From assembly GCF_030653815.1 (NCBI RefSeq), contig NZ_JAURYQ010000037.1, positions 62,001 through 126,000 of the forward strand: a stretch of 64,000 nt of DNA. The letters are read 5' to 3'. Below are positions 32,240 to 62,423 of the stretch, piece after piece. The notes below the pieces were generated by a model. The model searched no databases. It saw nothing but the letters and a program-made list of their open reading frames with translations, and had not been told where the DNA came from. The DNA comes from Rhodoferax sp. GTDB taxonomy: Bacteria; Pseudomonadota; Gammaproteobacteria; Burkholderiales; Burkholderiaceae_C. The position numbers and the translations under genes were made by a program. Each line of letters starts with the position of its first letter. Within the stretch, counting starts at the first letter, position 1.

Positions 32240-32270
32240 CAGGGTCAGGCGACGGTGTTGCTGAAGAAAG

Positions 32271-32651
32271 TTATTTCTTCGCGACGGTCTTCGTTTTCTT
32301 GGCGGGTGTTGCCGCTTTTGCAGCAGGCTTGGCGACCGGTTTTGTCGCAGCCTTGGCAGCGGGTTTGGCAGCAGGCTTGGCCTTCGCAGGTGCGGCTGCC
32401 GGCGCTGCGGCGGGTGCTGTTTTGAGTGCCGCACGCTGATCCCGCAGGGTCTGGATTTCTGCGTTGATCTTGTTCTTGCGTTCGGTGAGTTTTGCAATGC
32501 TGGCGCTGATCTTGGCCACGGCTTTGCCGGTCTTCGACACAGGTGCTTTTTTGGCTGCTGCCTTCGCAGCTGGCTTGACCACCGTGGCTGGCGCCACGGA
32601 TTTCTTCGGAATTGTTTTAGCTTTTGGAGACACTTTTTTTGCAGTTGCCAT
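32271..32651 (-). CDS. Histone H1-like Lys/Ala/Pro-rich protein
   Basis: A 126-residue, strongly basic, low-complexity protein that probably binds DNA or RNA non-specifically. The N-terminal 45 residues and the C-terminal 45 are built of Ala, Lys and Pro with repeated PAAK and KPAA units, as in H1-like or AlgP-type bacterial proteins. The middle (about residues 45-77, AKISASIAKLTERKNKINAE and onward) is a predicted coiled coil that could dimerise. AAGGAA lies 7 bp before the start. It is divergent from feoA. The function is inferred from composition. Confidence 0.75.
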   Translation of the reverse strand: MATAKKVSPKAKTIPKKSVAPATVVKPAAKAAAKKAPVSKTGKAVAKISASIAKLTERKNKINAEIQTLRDQRAALKTAPAAAPAAAPAKAKPAAKPAAKAATKPVAKPAAKAATPAKKTKTVAKK

Positions 32652-54418: not shown

Positions 54419-54865
54419 TCAGGGCCTGACCACCGGCCACCCTCGGCGCACCCATTCGCTCATGCCGCCCTGCACAAATCGCACGTGCGGGTAGCCGCGT
54501 TCACGCAAGGCCGACAGCGTTGAACTGCTGCGGTTCTGCGTGTTGCAAATCAGCAGCACCGGCTTGTCACTGGCAGTGGGTATTTCCGACAGGCGCGCGC
54601 CGAGTTGGCGCATGGGCAGCAACTGCGCGCCTTTGGCCACGCCCGTGGCGTGCTCGTTGGGTTCGCGAATGTCGATCAGCACCACCCGACCGGCCTCATG
54701 CTCGGCGCGCGCGAAATCCAGCGTCACCGAATCCGACGTGGCGGCTTCCGGGCTGCAGGCGGCCAGGGTCAGCCCCAGGCTGATCACAAGCAAGGACAGG
54801 CTGCGTCGTGTGCATGGAAATGAAAAGTCCTGATGGCTGGCGGGAAGGCGGGTCGTGCGTGGCAT
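54419..54865 (-). CDS. Rhodanese-domain lipoprotein
   Basis: A 148-residue secreted sulfur-transfer-type protein. A lipoprotein signal peptide ends in LTLAAC, so the mature protein is anchored by Cys39 or nearby. A single rhodanese domain follows, with IDIREPNEH, active-site loop ICNTQNRSS (catalytic Cys) and GGMSEWVRRGWPV. The ATG at 54865 is selected because the signal peptide begins shortly after it; the longer frame upstream overlaps the divergent esterase. Periplasmic thiosulfate or redox roles are possible; none is shown. Confidence 0.85.
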   Translation of the reverse strand: MPRTTRLPASHQDFSFPCTRRSLSLLVISLGLTLAACSPEAATSDSVTLDFARAEHEAGRVVLIDIREPNEHATGVAKGAQLLPMRQLGARLSEIPTASDKPVLLICNTQNRSSSTLSALRERGYPHVRFVQGGMSEWVRRGWPVVRP

Positions 54866-54925
54866 GGTTGGCGTCTGAAAAAGGAGGAACGGGGGCAATT
54901 CGGGTTGAACTATTATCCTTCCACC

Positions 54926-55525: not shown

Positions 55526-57016
55526 TCAGTTTTCGACCACGCGCAAAGACCACGGCGTTTTTTGCCAGGCCACGCATTCTTCGTTGAGCAGGTAGGCTGA
55601 CTGTGGGTACAAACGGGCCCAGTCGCTGTTGAAGTGCAGCACAAATTGGCGCACGTTCTTGGGATCCTGGTGCAGGCTGATGCCCGTCACATCCGGGTCG
55701 CGCCGGGCGTGGCACAACACCACCGCCAGGCGCAGCACCAGCAGTTGCTGGATGAACAGCTGGTCTTCAAAGTCGGCCTCCAACTTGCGCAATTTGCCGC
55801 GGTGCCCCAGCACCAGCAGGCTGAGCTTGTGCAGTTCGGTCAGGGCGAAACCCATGGCGTCGGTGTTGTCCAGAATGTAGGCGCCATGCTTGTGGTAGTC
55901 GCTGTGCGAGACGTGGCTGCCAATCTCGTGCAATTGCGCGGCCCAGGTGAGTTTGCGGCTGACGCGCTCGTCCACTGTCGCGTTGTTGAGCTGCCGGTAA
56001 AGCGCGTTGGCAATCTGGCCGACCCGTCTGCCGTGCACCGGATCGGCGCCAAATTTGGCAGCGAGGCGCTCCACCGAATGGTCGCGCAGGTCGGTGTGCT
56101 GCTGGCCCGACCCCAGCATGTCCTGCAGCAAGCCGTGGCGCAGACCGCCGGTGGCCTGTTCCAGGCGCTCGATGCCCAGCAGGTCAAACAGGGCGCGCAG
56201 CACGCTCAAGCCGCCGCCAATGATGGGTTTGCGATCGTCGCGCATGCCGGCCAGGCGCAAGCGGTCGGTGCTTTGGGCCGCCAGCAGTTTGTCTTGCAGC
56301 CAGTCCAGCCCGGGGCGCGTGACCGAGCCGGCCGGCCAGCCCGCAGCCACCAGCACGTCGACCACCGCGTTCACCGTGCCTGCCGAGCCGTAGGCCACGT
56401 CCCACTGGTCGGGACTGTACAGGCTCAGGGCTTCGTCCAGCACGGCTTTGGCGGCAATTTCGGCCATCTGAAACGAGCGCTTGGTGAACTGGTTGTCACC
56501 AAAATAGCGCATCGACCAGGCAATGCTGCCCACCCGGTACGACTCCATCTGAAGCGGCTCGCGCCCATGACCCAGAATGATTTCGGTGGAGCGTCCGCCA
56601 ATGTCGATGACCAGGCGGCGTTCCTGCGTGCTTGGCAGCGCCTGGGCCACGCCCTGGTAAATCAGCCGGGCCTCTTCGCGGCCCGAGATGACGTCGATCG
56701 GGAAGCCCAGTTTTTCGGTGCCGATGGCCAGGAATTCGTCCCGGTTACGGGCTTCGCGCAGGGTTTGGGTGGCTACGGCACACACTTCGGCCTCGGAAAA
56801 GCCCGCCAGCCGTTCGCCAAAGCGTGCCAGGCAGTCCCAGCCGCGCTGCATGGCAGCCGGCGTGAGGTTGCGGTTGTCGTCCAGGCCATTGCCCTGGCGC
56901 ACGGTTTCCTTGAGGTATTCGGTGCGGTAGAACTGACCGTGTTCAATACGGCCGATTTCGAGCCGGAAGCTGTTGGAGCCCAGGTCAACAGCCGCCAGGC
57001 GTGGTGTGTTTTGCAT
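55526..57016 (-). CDS. ppx: Exopolyphosphatase (Ppx/GppA family)
   Basis: Releases phosphate from polyphosphate ends, or hydrolyses pppGpp. It has 496 residues. The ASKHA-fold ATP/phosphate loops are LAAVDLGSNSFRLEIGRI near the N-terminus and LVIDIGGRSTEIILG around residue 140; usual members have DIGGGSTE, so one Gly is Arg here. The C-terminal half has an HD-like helical domain (AAQLHEIGSHVSHSDYHKHGAY). The ATG at 57016 is preferred to a TTG at 57022. It lies 10 bp after the pyruvate kinase stop and probably shares its transcript. Confidence 0.92.
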   Translation of the reverse strand: MQNTPRLAAVDLGSNSFRLEIGRIEHGQFYRTEYLKETVRQGNGLDDNRNLTPAAMQRGWDCLARFGERLAGFSEAEVCAVATQTLREARNRDEFLAIGTEKLGFPIDVISGREEARLIYQGVAQALPSTQERRLVIDIGGRSTEIILGHGREPLQMESYRVGSIAWSMRYFGDNQFTKRSFQMAEIAAKAVLDEALSLYSPDQWDVAYGSAGTVNAVVDVLVAAGWPAGSVTRPGLDWLQDKLLAAQSTDRLRLAGMRDDRKPIIGGGLSVLRALFDLLGIERLEQATGGLRHGLLQDMLGSGQQHTDLRDHSVERLAAKFGADPVHGRRVGQIANALYRQLNNATVDERVSRKLTWAAQLHEIGSHVSHSDYHKHGAYILDNTDAMGFALTELHKLSLLVLGHRGKLRKLEADFEDQLFIQQLLVLRLAVVLCHARRDPDVTGISLHQDPKNVRQFVLHFNSDWARLYPQSAYLLNEECVAWQKTPWSLRVVEN

Positions 57017-57026
57017 GGTCAAAAAT

Positions 57027-58976
57027 TCAAATCGTCAGACTCCCCAGCATAGCACCAGAAGCCGGCGTGTCCGGGCCACTCCATGCTTTCAGCGCGCGCA
57101 ACAGCGGGCGTTTTTTGGCCTGGTGGCCACCCATGCGTTGCAGGATGTCGTCCAGCGTGCGAATGGCCTGGCTGATGTAGGGCCCCTTGTTGAGCATGAC
57201 GCACTCGGCGCGCACACCCAGGCCGGCGTCCGAGATCTCGGCGCGCGAGGGCAGGCCGGTCTTGGCCATGAATTCGAGCACCTGGGTGGCCCAGATCACC
57301 GGCATGTGGGCGGCTTCGGCGCACCACAAGATTTCTTCCTGCACTTCGGCCAGGCGCTCATAGCCGCACTCCACCGCCAGGTCGCCGCGCGCAATCATCA
57401 CGCCCGACACGTTCGAAGCCATGGCTGACAGCATCAGCTCAGGCAGGTTTTCGAAACCCTGCAGGGTTTCGATCTTGAGCACGATGCCCATGTCGTCGCG
57501 GCCCAGACGCTGCAGCTGCCCGCGCAGCAGCGCAATGTCAGCCGGCTTTTGCACAAACGACAAGCCCACCATGTCGGCCTCGGCCGCCACCGTCTGCAGG
57601 TCTTCGATGTCCTTGTCGCTCAGCGCGGGCAGGTTCAGTTTGCTGTCGGGCAGGTTGATGCCTTTGTCGCCCGTGAGTTTTTCACCTTCCGGGCGCGCCT
57701 GGGTGATCTCGATGTCGAGCCAGTCGTCGGTTTGCTGGCGGATCACGCCGCCAATGCGACCATCGTCAAACCAGATGCGCTGGCCCACCCGGGCCTGGTC
57801 GATGACCTGCGGCAGGGTCACGGCCACGTGTGCCGGCTCCGGGCTGGGCGCGTCGGAGTCGTCGTCCATCGCGGCGGGCTGGCCGAGCCCGTCACGCGTC
57901 AGGCGCAGGTGGTCGCCCACATGCAGGCGCAAGGCACCTTGTTGGCTGTCAATCTGACACACCAGGGTGGCGTGTTTTTTCTTGCCGCCCGCGCCACCGA
58001 GAGTCAGCACGGTTTCCGGCGTCAGGTAAGCCGTTTGCAGGCATTCGGTGACGGCGCCGGTGTCGTCGTTGTGGACCACCAGCAGCTGGCGCTTGGCACC
58101 ACGCGCGTCGGTGAAATGGATGTGGCTGCCGGCTTTCAGGCGCGCCAGCCAGACCTCCCAAACGCCCACGCTGGCGTCGACATGCGGTACTTGCGCGGTG
58201 CTGTCGATGGGGCGCAGGTGCAGCCGGGCCGGGCGCACCACCCGGCCCATGTCGTCCTTGCCGGGCTTGAGCTTCAAGACCGGTGGCCGGTCCGCCACGG
58301 GGCCGGTCCTGATTTTGGGGCCACCCAGGTCCATCAGCAGCTTCACCGGCCGCTGGGCTGCGGCGGCGGCGCTGCGCACATGGGCGCTCATGCGTTGCCA
58401 GTCGCTTGGCGTGTCGTGGGCGCAGTTGATGCGGGCAATGTCCATGCCGGCGTCCACCAGTTCGCGTACCAGTTGGGCGTCGCTGGCGGCGTCCGAGGGC
58501 AGCGTGACCATGATGCGGACCGGGCGCCCTGCGGGGGCCTGGCCCAGCAGCCTGAGCGTGTGTTTTTTGAGCAGCGCACGGCTGCTGATGCTGCCCGCAG
58601 GTTCTTCGGCAGACTTGTCCTGCCAGGCCTGGCCGGTCAGGCGGTGCAACAGGCCCAGCACCTTGTCCAGGCTGGCCAGCACATGCGACTCGGAGCGTCC
58701 CAGCGACGACAGCCCGAGCCTGGCGAGTTGTTCCTGCAGCGGACGCAGGTCGATGCTGCGCAGGGTCAGGTAATGAATCAGGTTGCGCGCGCTCTTGCGG
58801 TACTCGGGCAGCACCTTGTCAAGCTCAAGCTTGAGCGCTTTTTCGCGCGCCAGCATGGCCTGTCGCAAGGCCCACAATTGGTCGATGAGCTTGAGGCAGA
58901 TGTCAAAGTCCTGCGGGTCGCCCCCGACAGTTGGCGATGGGGCAGCAGCGGCTGCAGCGTGGTCTTGTTTACTCAT
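57027..58976 (-). CDS. Atypical pyruvate kinase-like protein
   Basis: A 649-residue protein with a pyruvate kinase catalytic barrel but unusual ends. Residues 1-150 are a helical extension. The barrel starts RIMVTLPSDAASDAQLVREL, with RINCAHD (182-188, usual RxNFSHG) and MDLGGPKIRTG (215-225). An enlarged middle region (226-440) replaces the usual B domain of about 100 residues. Catalytic Lys501 and Glu503 (LKIETLQG), IARGDLAVE (528-536) and Thr564 (WATQVLEFM) are kept. Only about 45 residues follow the barrel, so the regulatory C domain is absent. It may make pyruvate or have another phosphoryl-transfer role. Confidence 0.85.
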   Translation of the reverse strand: MSKQDHAAAAAAPSPTVGGDPQDFDICLKLIDQLWALRQAMLAREKALKLELDKVLPEYRKSARNLIHYLTLRSIDLRPLQEQLARLGLSSLGRSESHVLASLDKVLGLLHRLTGQAWQDKSAEEPAGSISSRALLKKHTLRLLGQAPAGRPVRIMVTLPSDAASDAQLVRELVDAGMDIARINCAHDTPSDWQRMSAHVRSAAAAAQRPVKLLMDLGGPKIRTGPVADRPPVLKLKPGKDDMGRVVRPARLHLRPIDSTAQVPHVDASVGVWEVWLARLKAGSHIHFTDARGAKRQLLVVHNDDTGAVTECLQTAYLTPETVLTLGGAGGKKKHATLVCQIDSQQGALRLHVGDHLRLTRDGLGQPAAMDDDSDAPSPEPAHVAVTLPQVIDQARVGQRIWFDDGRIGGVIRQQTDDWLDIEITQARPEGEKLTGDKGINLPDSKLNLPALSDKDIEDLQTVAAEADMVGLSFVQKPADIALLRGQLQRLGRDDMGIVLKIETLQGFENLPELMLSAMASNVSGVMIARGDLAVECGYERLAEVQEEILWCAEAAHMPVIWATQVLEFMAKTGLPSRAEISDAGLGVRAECVMLNKGPYISQAIRTLDDILQRMGGHQAKKRPLLRALKAWSGPDTPASGAMLGSLTI

Positions 58977-58995
58977 GCCGCCGTTTATAGGCGCC

Positions 58996-59016
58996 TTTCA
59001 TGACACTGTCATGAAA
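58996..59016. promoter_or_regulatory. Perfect 21-bp palindrome between pyruvate kinase and CYTH-CHAD
   Basis: TTTCATGACA and its exact reverse complement flank a single central C. It sits 20 bp upstream of the pyruvate kinase ATG and 73 bp upstream of the CYTH ATG, in a 113-bp divergent gap, as expected for a dimeric regulator. The right half is also part of a Pho-box-like match. Confidence 0.65.
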
Positions 59017-59023
59017 ATGGCAT
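59006..59023 (+). promoter_or_regulatory. Candidate Pho box upstream of CYTH-CHAD
   Basis: CTGTCATGAAAATGGCAT matches the first 7-bp PhoB repeat (CTGTCAT) exactly and the second at four of seven positions, with the correct AT-rich 4-bp spacer. A GATAAT -10-like hexamer follows at 59041-59046, 17 bp after the match. The neighbours (ppx, CHAD, SixA, PhoX) make phosphate control plausible. Confidence 0.4.
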
Positions 59024-59089
59024 GATGAGTCAGTCGCAAGGATAATTTGCGCAAGTCCTGGGTCAACCTGCCTTGAAAGGCCTTACGCC

Positions 59090-60598
59090 ATGAAGTCACG
59101 CCCGCACCACAGCGCGCCGCAAGAGGTGGAACTCAAACTGAGCCTGCCGGGTCCCCATGCGGCTGAGCTGGCCAAGCGGCTGGCCCAACTGCCGGCATTG
59201 GCGCGGCGCAAGCCGTCCCGGCTGTCCCTGAGCAATATTTATTTCGACACACCCGACCAGGCTTTGCGCCAGCAAGGTGTTGCCTTGCGTTTGCGCCGGG
59301 TTGGCAGCGAGGCCGATCCGCGTTGGCTGCAAACCCTGAAAACCAGCAGCGGCGAGCGCTCCGCCCTGAGCCAGCGCGGCGAATGGGAAAGTCCGGTGGC
59401 CGGGCCGGCGCTGGACCGGGCGGCGCTGGCCCACACCGCCTGGACCGGCATCGACCCCGATGGCCGCCTGTTTGCTGCCCTGGCGCCGTGTTTTGTCACC
59501 CGCTTCGAGCGCACCCTTTGGCTGGTACGCCGACGCGGTGGCAGTGTGGTGGAAGTGGCGCTGGACATCGGTCAGGTCGAGGCCAACGGCAAACAGGCCC
59601 CTATTTGCGAACTGGAGCTTGAACTCAAGGCGGGTGATTCCACGGCGCTGTTCGCGCTGGCGCACCAGCTGGGCCGGGGTGTGGCGCTGCTGCCGGCCAA
59701 CCGCAGCAAGGCCGAGCGCGGCTTTTTGCTGGCGCAAGACGCGCTCGACCTGCCGCAGCGCGCGCAGCGGGCCCCCCTGGTTTTGCCCTTGAGCCGGCTC
59801 GAGCTGGCGCAGCGCGTGCTGCGCGAGATGTTTGGGCACTTCAGTCAAAACCTGGAAGCCCTGGGCACGTCGGACGATCCCGAGGTGGTGCACTAGGCCC
59901 GCGTGGGCTGGCGCCGCTTTCGCTCGGGCTTGCGGCTCTTTGGCAAGACGCTGGCGCTGTCCCAGCCGCCAGCGTGGCTGGACTTGCAGCCCTTGCTGGC
60001 GGGGCTGGGCGCGCTGCGCGACCTGGATGTGGCCGTGACCGAAACGCTGCCAAGCCTGGCCGATGGCTACACACTGGGTGATGTCGGTCGAGCCCAAGCC
60101 TGGCAGGCCGTGTTGGCCGCCCTGACGCAAGCCGCCGCCGCGCAGCGCCAACAGCTGCGCCAAAGCCAGCAGGCACCGGCTGTTGGCCTGTGCTTGCTGG
60201 CGCTGACCGAATGGCTGGAAAATTTGTCGGCAGCGGACAACGGCGGGCCGGTTCAAAGAGGCGCGCTGCGTCGTTGGGCCAGGCGCCGCACCGGGCGCCT
60301 GCAGCAGCGCCTGGCGCAGGCCCACAAGCAGGCTGACACGCCGCAGCAGCAACACCGGGTGCGCATTCTGGCCAAAAGGCTACGTTATGGGGTCGAGGCG
60401 CTGCGCGCGCTGTTGCCCCGGCATCAGGCAGACACCTGCATCGAGCAGGCCAGCCAGCTTCAGGGCCGCCTTGGCCAGTCCCGCGATGTGGCGCAGGCCA
60501 GCGCCTTGGTGGTTGCGCTGGCGCTGGACCGCCACATTGAGGCCTATTTGCAAGGTGTGGCGGTGGGTTTTAAAGCAGGTCTGGGCTCTGCACCGTGA
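59090..60598 (+). pseudogene. CYTH-CHAD protein interrupted by in-frame TAG
   Basis: One continuous frame of 502 codons broken only by TAG at 59894-59896. The first part (268 residues) is a CYTH domain with EVELKLSL, paired Arg/Lys strands and ELELELKAG, as in inorganic triphosphatases. The second part is a CHAD domain, a polyphosphate-binding helical fold rich in His and Arg (ARVGWRRFRSGLRLF, HRVRILAKRLRYGVEAL). Family members read VHQAR at the break, so the stop replaces a Gln codon (CAG to TAG, one base). It is either a recent nonsense mutation, a two-protein arrangement with restart at GTG 59903, or readthrough. Confidence 0.85.
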
Positions 60599-61031
60599 CC
60601 ACCAGGGTCTGCGCCTGGGCTTCGCGCTCGCGGCTGCGCAGCCACCAGACCGCGCCCTTTTTGACCGAACATTCAGCGACGCTCAAGCCAAGCAATTGGG
60701 CGATGGTTTGCCCCAGTGTGGGTTGATGCCCCACCACCAGCACGCATCCCCTGGCATCGGGCCATTGCACCAACTCCAGCAACTGCGCCGTGCTTGCGTC
60801 CGGCTCCAGCTCGGACCTGAGCTTGAATTTCCGGCCCAAGGCGCTGGCAGTTTGCTCGGTGCGAACTGCCGGACTGACCAGAATGCGGGTGTTGTCGGGC
60901 AACTGGCGATCGAGCCAGCCAGCCATGCGCTTGGCCTGCTTTTCGCCGCGCGTGGTCAGGCGCCGGGCCATGTCGTCACAGCCCTGCGTCCATTCTTGCG
61001 CCTCGGCGTGGCGCCACAAAATCAGGTCCAT
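60570..61031 (-). CDS. sixA: Phosphohistidine phosphatase SixA
   Basis: Histidine-phosphatase-fold enzyme of 153 residues that removes phosphate from phosphohistidine proteins; E. coli SixA acts on nitrogen-PTS NPr. The active-site RHAEA motif starts at residue 7 (LILWRHAEAQEW), with SPAVRTEQTA and the second catalytic His in LVVGHQPTLGQ. The ATG at 61031, directly before DLILWRHAE, is chosen over 61049. The 3' end overlaps the 3' end of the convergent CYTH-CHAD frame by 29 bp. Confidence 0.9.
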   Translation of the reverse strand: MDLILWRHAEAQEWTQGCDDMARRLTTRGEKQAKRMAGWLDRQLPDNTRILVSPAVRTEQTASALGRKFKLRSELEPDASTAQLLELVQWPDARGCVLVVGHQPTLGQTIAQLLGLSVAECSVKKGAVWWLRSREREAQAQTLVVTVQSPDLL

Positions 61032-61056
61032 GCCCACAATATAGGTCAAAAAGATG

Positions 61057-62358
61057 TCAATTTGAAGACAATGCCGCCGCGCGGCCGCGCTGCACGTTCA
61101 CCGGCACCAGCAGCACCAGGCCCAGCACAAACAGCACCGAGGTGCTCAAAATGGCGGTGCGCTGGTCGCCACCAGTGACCCAGGTGATGAGGCCGTAGCT
61201 CAAGGGGCCGACGATGCTGGCAAGGCGGATGGCAAAGGTCCACAGGCCGTAAAACTCGGCCACCTGGCGCTGCGGCGCAAACAGGCCTGCCATGGCACGC
61301 CCGGCCGACTGGCTGCTGCCCATGCACAGGCCGGCAATCACGGCGGCGTACCAGAAGTCGCCCTTGCTGCCGGCCTGCGCGGCGATGACGCAGGTGGCAA
61401 TCCAGCCCAGCAGGGTGATGGCCAGTGCAATTTTGTGACCGATGCGGTCCTGCAGGTAGCCCCAGCTGAAGGCGCCTGCAGCGGCGGCCAGGTTCAGTAC
61501 AAAAATCAGCACCATGGTTTCCTGCTGCGCAAAGCCAATCACCTGCTCGGCATAAATGGCAGCCAGCGCAATCGCCACGGCCACGCCGGCCTGGTAACAC
61601 ACGGCGCAGGCCAGCAGCCACATGAAGTCCGTGAACTGGCGGGCCTGATGAAAAGTGTGTTGCAACTGCTTCAGGGCGGCCCGGAAGCCGCCTTGGCCGA
61701 GCGCGGCCGGGTTGGGCTGCGCCCGCTCTTTCAGCAGGGCAAAGGTGACCAGCGCCGCCGCACCGTAAAGTGCCGCCGTGATCAGCATCGTCACCGGCAC
61801 AAACTGCGCCGCGCTCTGGCCCTGGCCTTGCGCCCACAGCACATAAGCCAGGCACAACCCGAGCGCCAGCATGCCGCCAAAGTAGCCAAAGCTCCAGCCC
61901 CAGCCACTGACCTTGCCCAGCGACTCAGCACGCGCCAGTTCGGGCAGAAATGCCGCCGTCATCGACTCGCCCCAGGCGTAAAAGGTGTTGGACACCACAA
62001 TCAATACGATCGCCAGCGCCACGCTGCCAGGGCCGACCAGCGCCAGCGCCGCCGTGGCCAGCACGCAGCCCGCCGTGAACAGCGTGAGCAGGCGCTTTTT
62101 GGCCGCACGCAAGTCGGCGTAGGCGCCCAGGCTGGGCATGGTGAGCATGACGATGGCGTTCGACAAGCTCAGTGCCGCCGTCCAGGCCAGCGTGGCCCAG
62201 GGCGCGCCTTGCGCCACACTGCCGACGAAATAGGCCGCAAACACGGCGGTGATGACCACCGTGGTGTAGCCCGAGTTGGCAAAGTCGTACATGGCCCAGC
62301 CAAAGACCTCGCGCTTGCGCACGCCAGGCTGGAGGGCTTGTTGGGAGAAAAGTGGCAT
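61057..62358 (-). CDS. UMF1/Atg22-type MFS transporter
   Basis: A 433-residue inner-membrane transporter with about 12 helices, of the UMF1 branch of the major facilitator superfamily (related to vacuolar Atg22). The signature is at the start: REVFGWAMYDFANSGYTTVV, followed by VLIVVSNTFYAWGESMTAAFLPELA and SLGKVSGWGWSFGYFGG. The second half has GYLQDRIGHKIAL and GLCMGSSQSAGRAMAGLFAP. The ATG at 62358 fits the family; the longer frame runs through the phoX terminator. The substrate is unknown. It may be co-transcribed with sixA (25 bp apart). Confidence 0.87.
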   Translation of the reverse strand: MPLFSQQALQPGVRKREVFGWAMYDFANSGYTTVVITAVFAAYFVGSVAQGAPWATLAWTAALSLSNAIVMLTMPSLGAYADLRAAKKRLLTLFTAGCVLATAALALVGPGSVALAIVLIVVSNTFYAWGESMTAAFLPELARAESLGKVSGWGWSFGYFGGMLALGLCLAYVLWAQGQGQSAAQFVPVTMLITAALYGAAALVTFALLKERAQPNPAALGQGGFRAALKQLQHTFHQARQFTDFMWLLACAVCYQAGVAVAIALAAIYAEQVIGFAQQETMVLIFVLNLAAAAGAFSWGYLQDRIGHKIALAITLLGWIATCVIAAQAGSKGDFWYAAVIAGLCMGSSQSAGRAMAGLFAPQRQVAEFYGLWTFAIRLASIVGPLSYGLITWVTGGDQRTAILSTSVLFVLGLVLLVPVNVQRGRAAALSSN

Positions 62359-62393
62359 GGTGGTTTGCAGTGTAAAACAGCCGTCCCCAAAAC

Positions 62394-62423
62394 AAAAAAC
62401 CCGGCCCCCATGCAAGGGCCGGG
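62394..62423 (-). terminator. Rho-independent terminator after phoX
   Basis: On the minus strand an 8-bp G+C stem (CCCGGCCC with GGGCCGGG, eight-base loop) is followed at once by six T residues, 53 bp after the PhoX stop codon. This is a textbook intrinsic terminator. Confidence 0.9.

Follow-up and report, generated by a model that had tools for sequence, protein, structure and literature searches.

The 64,000-nt stretch of DNA that was analysed (hereafter, the window) carries on its forward strand, at 59090-60598, a single reading frame that encodes a CYTH and a CHAD domain and is broken solely by a TAG codon at 59894-59896 (Table 1). Translation gave 268 residues, the TAG, and 233 further residues before a TGA, with no other in-frame stop. 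The CYTH domain (Pfam PF01928) matched residues 11-208, upstream of the stop (E = 5.6e-23; 82.1 bits, curated cut-off 23.2), and the CHAD domain (PF05235, profile positions 29-226) matched downstream of it (E = 4.1e-30; 105.9 bits, cut-off 25.6), both in one frame. The translation and the Pfam matches confirm two statements of the preliminary description, namely that the two halves share a frame with the TAG alone between them and that the CHAD half is free of further stops up to the TGA. The same description had the TAG replace the glutamine of a VH-Q-AR motif that opens the CHAD domain; this placement does not hold, since the CHAD profile match begins approximately 26 residues earlier, at 59816. 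The stop, preceded by DPEVVH and followed by ARVGWRRF, sits within CHAD, approximately 26 residues in (at about profile position 28), and not between the domains.

By its domains the gene is a ygiF-type CYTH-CHAD polyphosphatase, with a predicted activity of hydrolyzing tripolyphosphate or short polyphosphate; the uninterrupted frame of such a gene is lacking here. One CYTH match and one CHAD match were found in the whole genome (a draft of 3.57 Mb in 44 contigs, 98.3% complete), and both fall on the TAG-broken gene.

Table 1. Features of the CYTH-CHAD locus, in window coordinates
Feature	Position	Strand	Remarks
Ppx/GppA exopolyphosphatase-like gene	55526..57022	-	Retained in contigs of the two nearest relatives
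Pyruvate kinase, PRK14725 type	57027..58976	-	Divergent neighbour
CYTH (triphosphate tunnel) half	59090..59896	+	268 codons and TAG; 3′ end is the first ~26 CHAD residues
Whole CHAD profile match, across the stop	59816..60508	+	Contig C17 121816-122508; profile 2-226; 127.7 bits; one TAG inside
In-frame TAG	59894..59896	+	Site of a conserved Gln, residue 269
CHAD remnant 3′ of the stop	59897..60598	+	Open up to TGA; no in-frame ATG
GTG, proposed restart codon	59903..59905	+	Six bases 3′ of TAG; best anti-SD pairing at 59883-59891
SixA-type phosphohistidine phosphatase	60570..61049	-	Converges on the CHAD end

The two nearest genomes have the same neighbourhood (Ppx, pyruvate kinase, CYTH-CHAD, SixA and an MFS transporter), and the neighbours of the CYTH-CHAD gene are intact. 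The transporter, Atg22-like and located at 61057-62415 beside SixA and CYTH-CHAD, also has matches in the contigs of those two relatives. Stops in two comparison rows of neighbouring genes (pyruvate kinase against G062, Ppx against G039) were discarded, being located upstream of the predicted starts. The short intergenic region that separates CYTH-CHAD from the divergent pyruvate kinase gene (58977-59089) holds promoter-like matches on both strands; two such matches were counted within 58900-60700, and the mean over shuffled sequences was 0.0.

The site codon in relatives

The shared frame is no coincidence: both halves align to one continuous protein in relatives. The named relatives, among the best 80 of 135 candidate loci, belong to Rhodoferax, Polaromonas and other Comamonadaceae and are mostly metagenome-assembled genomes; the closest among these best 80 matches is Burkholderiales bacterium RIFOXYD12_FULL_59_19 (81% identity). 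The searches turned up no further genome of this species. The stop site was spanned by 111 rows, which gave 79 distinct sequences once duplicates were dropped, that is, 78 relatives and the window's own gene. None of the 78 has a stop within the aligned span. At the site they carry CAG (56), CAA (15) or GAG, GAA or AGG (7, all distant, at 30-34% identity), and each of the 67 relatives that reach 43% identity carries a glutamine codon (CAG in 54, CAA in 13). The nearest relative has CAA and the next seven closest have CAG. In a 36-row alignment, in which Gln was placed at the TAG of the window row, residue 269 is Gln in 35 of 35 relatives, and H268 and R271 are invariant. The preliminary description had proposed a CAG to TAG change and had set against it the case of two separate genes in all relatives; a search for that case came back negative, and relatives are fused. 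The comparison of the site codon supports a mutation to a stop where the fused gene has a conserved Gln; CAG as the immediate precursor is assumed.

A search of 89 genomes of the genus gave a match in 58, the source genome counted; outside the source genome, none of the full-length matches has a stop at the TAG site. The CYTH-CHAD match was absent from the other 31 of the 89 genomes, and from 14 of the 50 better ones. Across the family, 132 of 299 sampled genomes matched at 1e-20 (the source genome included), and four rows besides the window's own bear a stop: one full fusion and three CYTH matches. None of the four was retained as a broken CYTH-CHAD gene. The full fusion (G227) aligns stop-free to residue 463, and the three CYTH matches (G346, G350 and G276) have no CHAD within the fetched stretch. 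Stops in G053 and G029 were taken as terminal, none lying inside the aligned span (to residue 493 in L018 and 495 in L029). A TAG also occurs in a partial, weakly matching row (G059:C402, 33% identity). Among six stretches of the family search, chosen since their match ended early or held a stop, five (L204, L205, L206, L208 and L209) encode CYTH with no CHAD in the fetched stretch. Separately, a contig labelled as an Akkermansia muciniphila metagenome-assembled genome (L122) bears a Burkholderiales-like CHAD piece and was probably wrongly binned.

Selection after the stop and other stop-split frames

The CHAD half showed dN/dS values of 0.23-0.28 between the source genome and seven relatives, and of 0.18-0.39 among those relatives. 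On its own branch the CHAD half gave an omega-like ratio of 0.38 when two outgroups were used (bootstrap 0.24-0.58) and of 0.33 when three were used (0.18-0.61); two sister lineages gave 0.31 and 0.43 beside the value of 0.38, and their overall range was 0.31-0.51. Residues unique to one sequence were 7 of 111 in the source genome and 2-11 of 106-115 in six others. Neither relaxed selection nor decay after the stop was seen in comparison with sister lineages; relaxation would show only after a sufficiently old loss. By our own arithmetic, the upper bound of omega would date a loss to about the final third of the branch, if an unconstrained branch has an omega of 1; dating is coarse, with dS to the nearest relative being approximately 0.5-0.6. 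A very young mutation, one of the explanations first put forward, fits the unrelaxed selection, but a base error or readthrough would agree with these data as well: selection estimated from these sequences does not separate the three.

All 267,473 bases of the contig (C17) were scanned for same-frame coding segments separated by one stop. With a strict cut-off (above the mean score of the scan's own training ORFs), six cases were found, the CYTH-CHAD gene among them; the other five were rejected as split genes, being pairs of different genes of which the second has an ATG within 39 nt. The scan was repeated after the score had been retrained and the cut-offs lowered, so that between 78% and 93% of coding stretches qualified, depending on the cut-off; it gave 6, 9 and 12 cases at cut-offs of 0.25, 0.15 and 0.10. 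In every list the CYTH-CHAD gene is the sole case with a TAG and the sole case without an ATG after the stop. At the lowest cut-off, 9 of the 11 other cases have an ATG at most 12 codons past the stop, and two weak cases (contig positions 192404 and 199176; scores 0.11-0.14) have one after 60 and 139 codons. Neither avoidance of TAG nor another in-gene TAG was seen in the scans of this contig.

Elsewhere in the window, two stop-bearing comparison rows near 31.9 and 32.5 kb were dismissed after the DNA was read by eye, since small intact genes had been matched there out of frame or on the opposite strand, and a third (54495-54899) is antisense to a listed ORF. The minus-strand gene at 32264-32651 is small, Ala/Lys-rich and histone-H1-like, a label given by our own reading.

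Origin of the stop codon

The TAG could be wrong at a single base, through the consensus or the assembly, or could come from a minor strain variant, the true gene being an ordinary intact CYTH-CHAD fusion. Just one base is at stake, the CHAD remnant is under normal constraint, and the 44-contig draft lacks some expected tRNA genes. Against this, the gene is the sole clear single-stop break in 267 kb, so the contig is not visibly error-rich; consensus substitution errors are also rare, whereas real nonsense alleles are common in bacterial genomes. We regard an error of this kind as unlikely, though a serious competitor. Far less credible is termination followed by restart at GTG 59903 to give a separate CHAD protein, as had been suggested at the outset. 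That codon follows the TAG closely, and the best anti-SD pairing near it (AGGUGGUGC, starting 20 nt upstream and including AGGUGG; -6.7 kcal/mol) was the strongest of nine starts tested, eight of them other starts in the window, some of which are mechanical ORF starts; the gene's own ATG reached -3.2. The spacing is long by usual standards, with AGG ending 17 nt and AGGUGG 14 nt before the GTG, and the same SD-like bases encode the E-V-V of EVVH in fused relatives as well. A remnant without any in-frame ATG and with its SD-like stretch 14-17 nt off does not have the own start and well-placed ribosome-binding site of a separate gene, and its product would be short of 29 CHAD residues, H268 and R271 included. 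On the fused relatives and this start-site evidence together, we rejected an operon of two separate genes.

Functional amber readthrough, in which some ribosomes insert, for example, Gln at the TAG and make some full-length CYTH-CHAD protein beside CYTH alone, had likewise been raised and found no positive evidence of its own; we consider it improbable. Purifying selection persists after the stop, and an in-frame TAG/CAG alternation with low dN/dS has been described in bacteria, in the available part of PMC7918605; the same part calls in-frame stops with low dN/dS frequent, and its authors assume that most are not functional recoding. The stop is directly followed by G, and in E. coli reporters, according to the accessible portion of PMC11126739, readthrough decreases from TGA to TAG to TAA and is raised by a G after the stop. 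A legend in that portion names glutamine and tyrosine for a stop that we take, by its colour, as TAG, although TGA is printed. Half of the 20 bases 3′ of the stop are G, a level reached at 8% of gene positions, and the five bases immediately 5′ of it (TGCAC) include a single G and a single T, which leaves the upstream side neutral. On the other hand, RNA past the stop is not unusually structured (z = -0.85 and 0.45, with -1.27 before the stop and 0.72 in one relative, over four stretches folded), and none of the 78 relatives shares the stop. No tRNA with a CTA anticodon is present among the 38 tRNA genes found, a set that is incomplete, tRNA-Tyr and tRNA-Ile(GAT) being missing too. The genome has two stop-free release-factor (PCRF) genes, one of which is presumably RF1, and TAG is an ordinary terminator that ends 17 of 153 long ORFs of the contig (picked by length), or 17 of 146 after retraining. 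A recoded genome found no support in the tRNA genes recovered, the intact PCRF genes, the scans of the contig or the use of TAG as a terminator there. (The two missing tRNA genes probably fell into assembly gaps at repeats or rRNA genes.) The sequence context allows low basal readthrough, no more. Should the full-length fusion still be produced, the locus would illustrate stop readthrough in bacterial polyphosphate metabolism. It is most improbable that the TAG is a kept leaky switch, at which basal Gln insertion yields a minor fraction of full-length enzyme tethered to polyphosphate while most of the enzyme is free CYTH; if it were, termination efficiency would set the share of activity sitting on polyphosphate.

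The TAG in this ygiF-type CYTH-CHAD gene, from a Rhodoferax-like betaproteobacterium, is probably a young nonsense mutation that reduces the product to a CYTH-only enzyme and leaves most of CHAD as a remnant. We infer that the base is real; observed were the stop, the intact frame, the fused relatives and the unrelaxed selection. In favour of a recent nonsense mutation is a lone stop in an otherwise intact frame, unique to this genome, with no stop in the aligned span of any of 78 relatives. Against it are the absence of a second disabling change and of relaxation, and the two changes that a path from CAA, the codon of the nearest relative, to TAG would take. With CAG assumed as the ancestral codon from the next seven closest relatives, a single CAG to TAG change would suffice, and translation would stop at the TAG to yield a 268-residue CYTH protein. 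CHAD domains bind polyphosphate via two four-helix bundles, and the activity of YgiF is enhanced by its CHAD domain. The CYTH-only product would probably keep some short-chain polyphosphatase (triphosphatase) activity and lose the polyphosphate-binding module. It is plausibly still active and the loss of CHAD tolerable. The 233 codons past the stop would be a remnant, untranslated or barely translated, that has so far escaped decay. The gene looks dispensable, given the many genus genomes without a match.

As it stands, the locus adds one more single-stop allele in an accessory gene that many relatives lack, and it looks like an ordinary feature, either a recent nonsense mutation or a base-call error, with no new recoding system. 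If real, the allele would be a natural test of CYTH function without CHAD. Among the papers listed by a literature search on this topic, none appeared to treat such a case.

Comparison with known systems

Among the closest described counterparts is the inorganic triphosphatase YgiF of E. coli (PDB 5A60/5A61), a CYTH-CHAD protein that the CYTH half matches over residues 11-217 (E = 2.1e-26). The domain order is the same, as far as the excerpt of PMC6537752 describes it. The window gene differs in having a TAG early in CHAD, and its CHAD half was left unaligned to YgiF by phmmer. The CHAD structure PDB 6QV5 matched residues 212-481 (E = 8e-17), with its DPE..HQ.RVG.RR lining up with the stop site; in contrast to the window gene, the solved CHAD chain is unbroken. 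The TAG/CAG alternations in the available part of PMC7918605 resemble the present case in that TAG replaces CAG inside a constrained frame. They differ in that the stops treated there are common to two or more species, whereas the window TAG occurs in one genome only.
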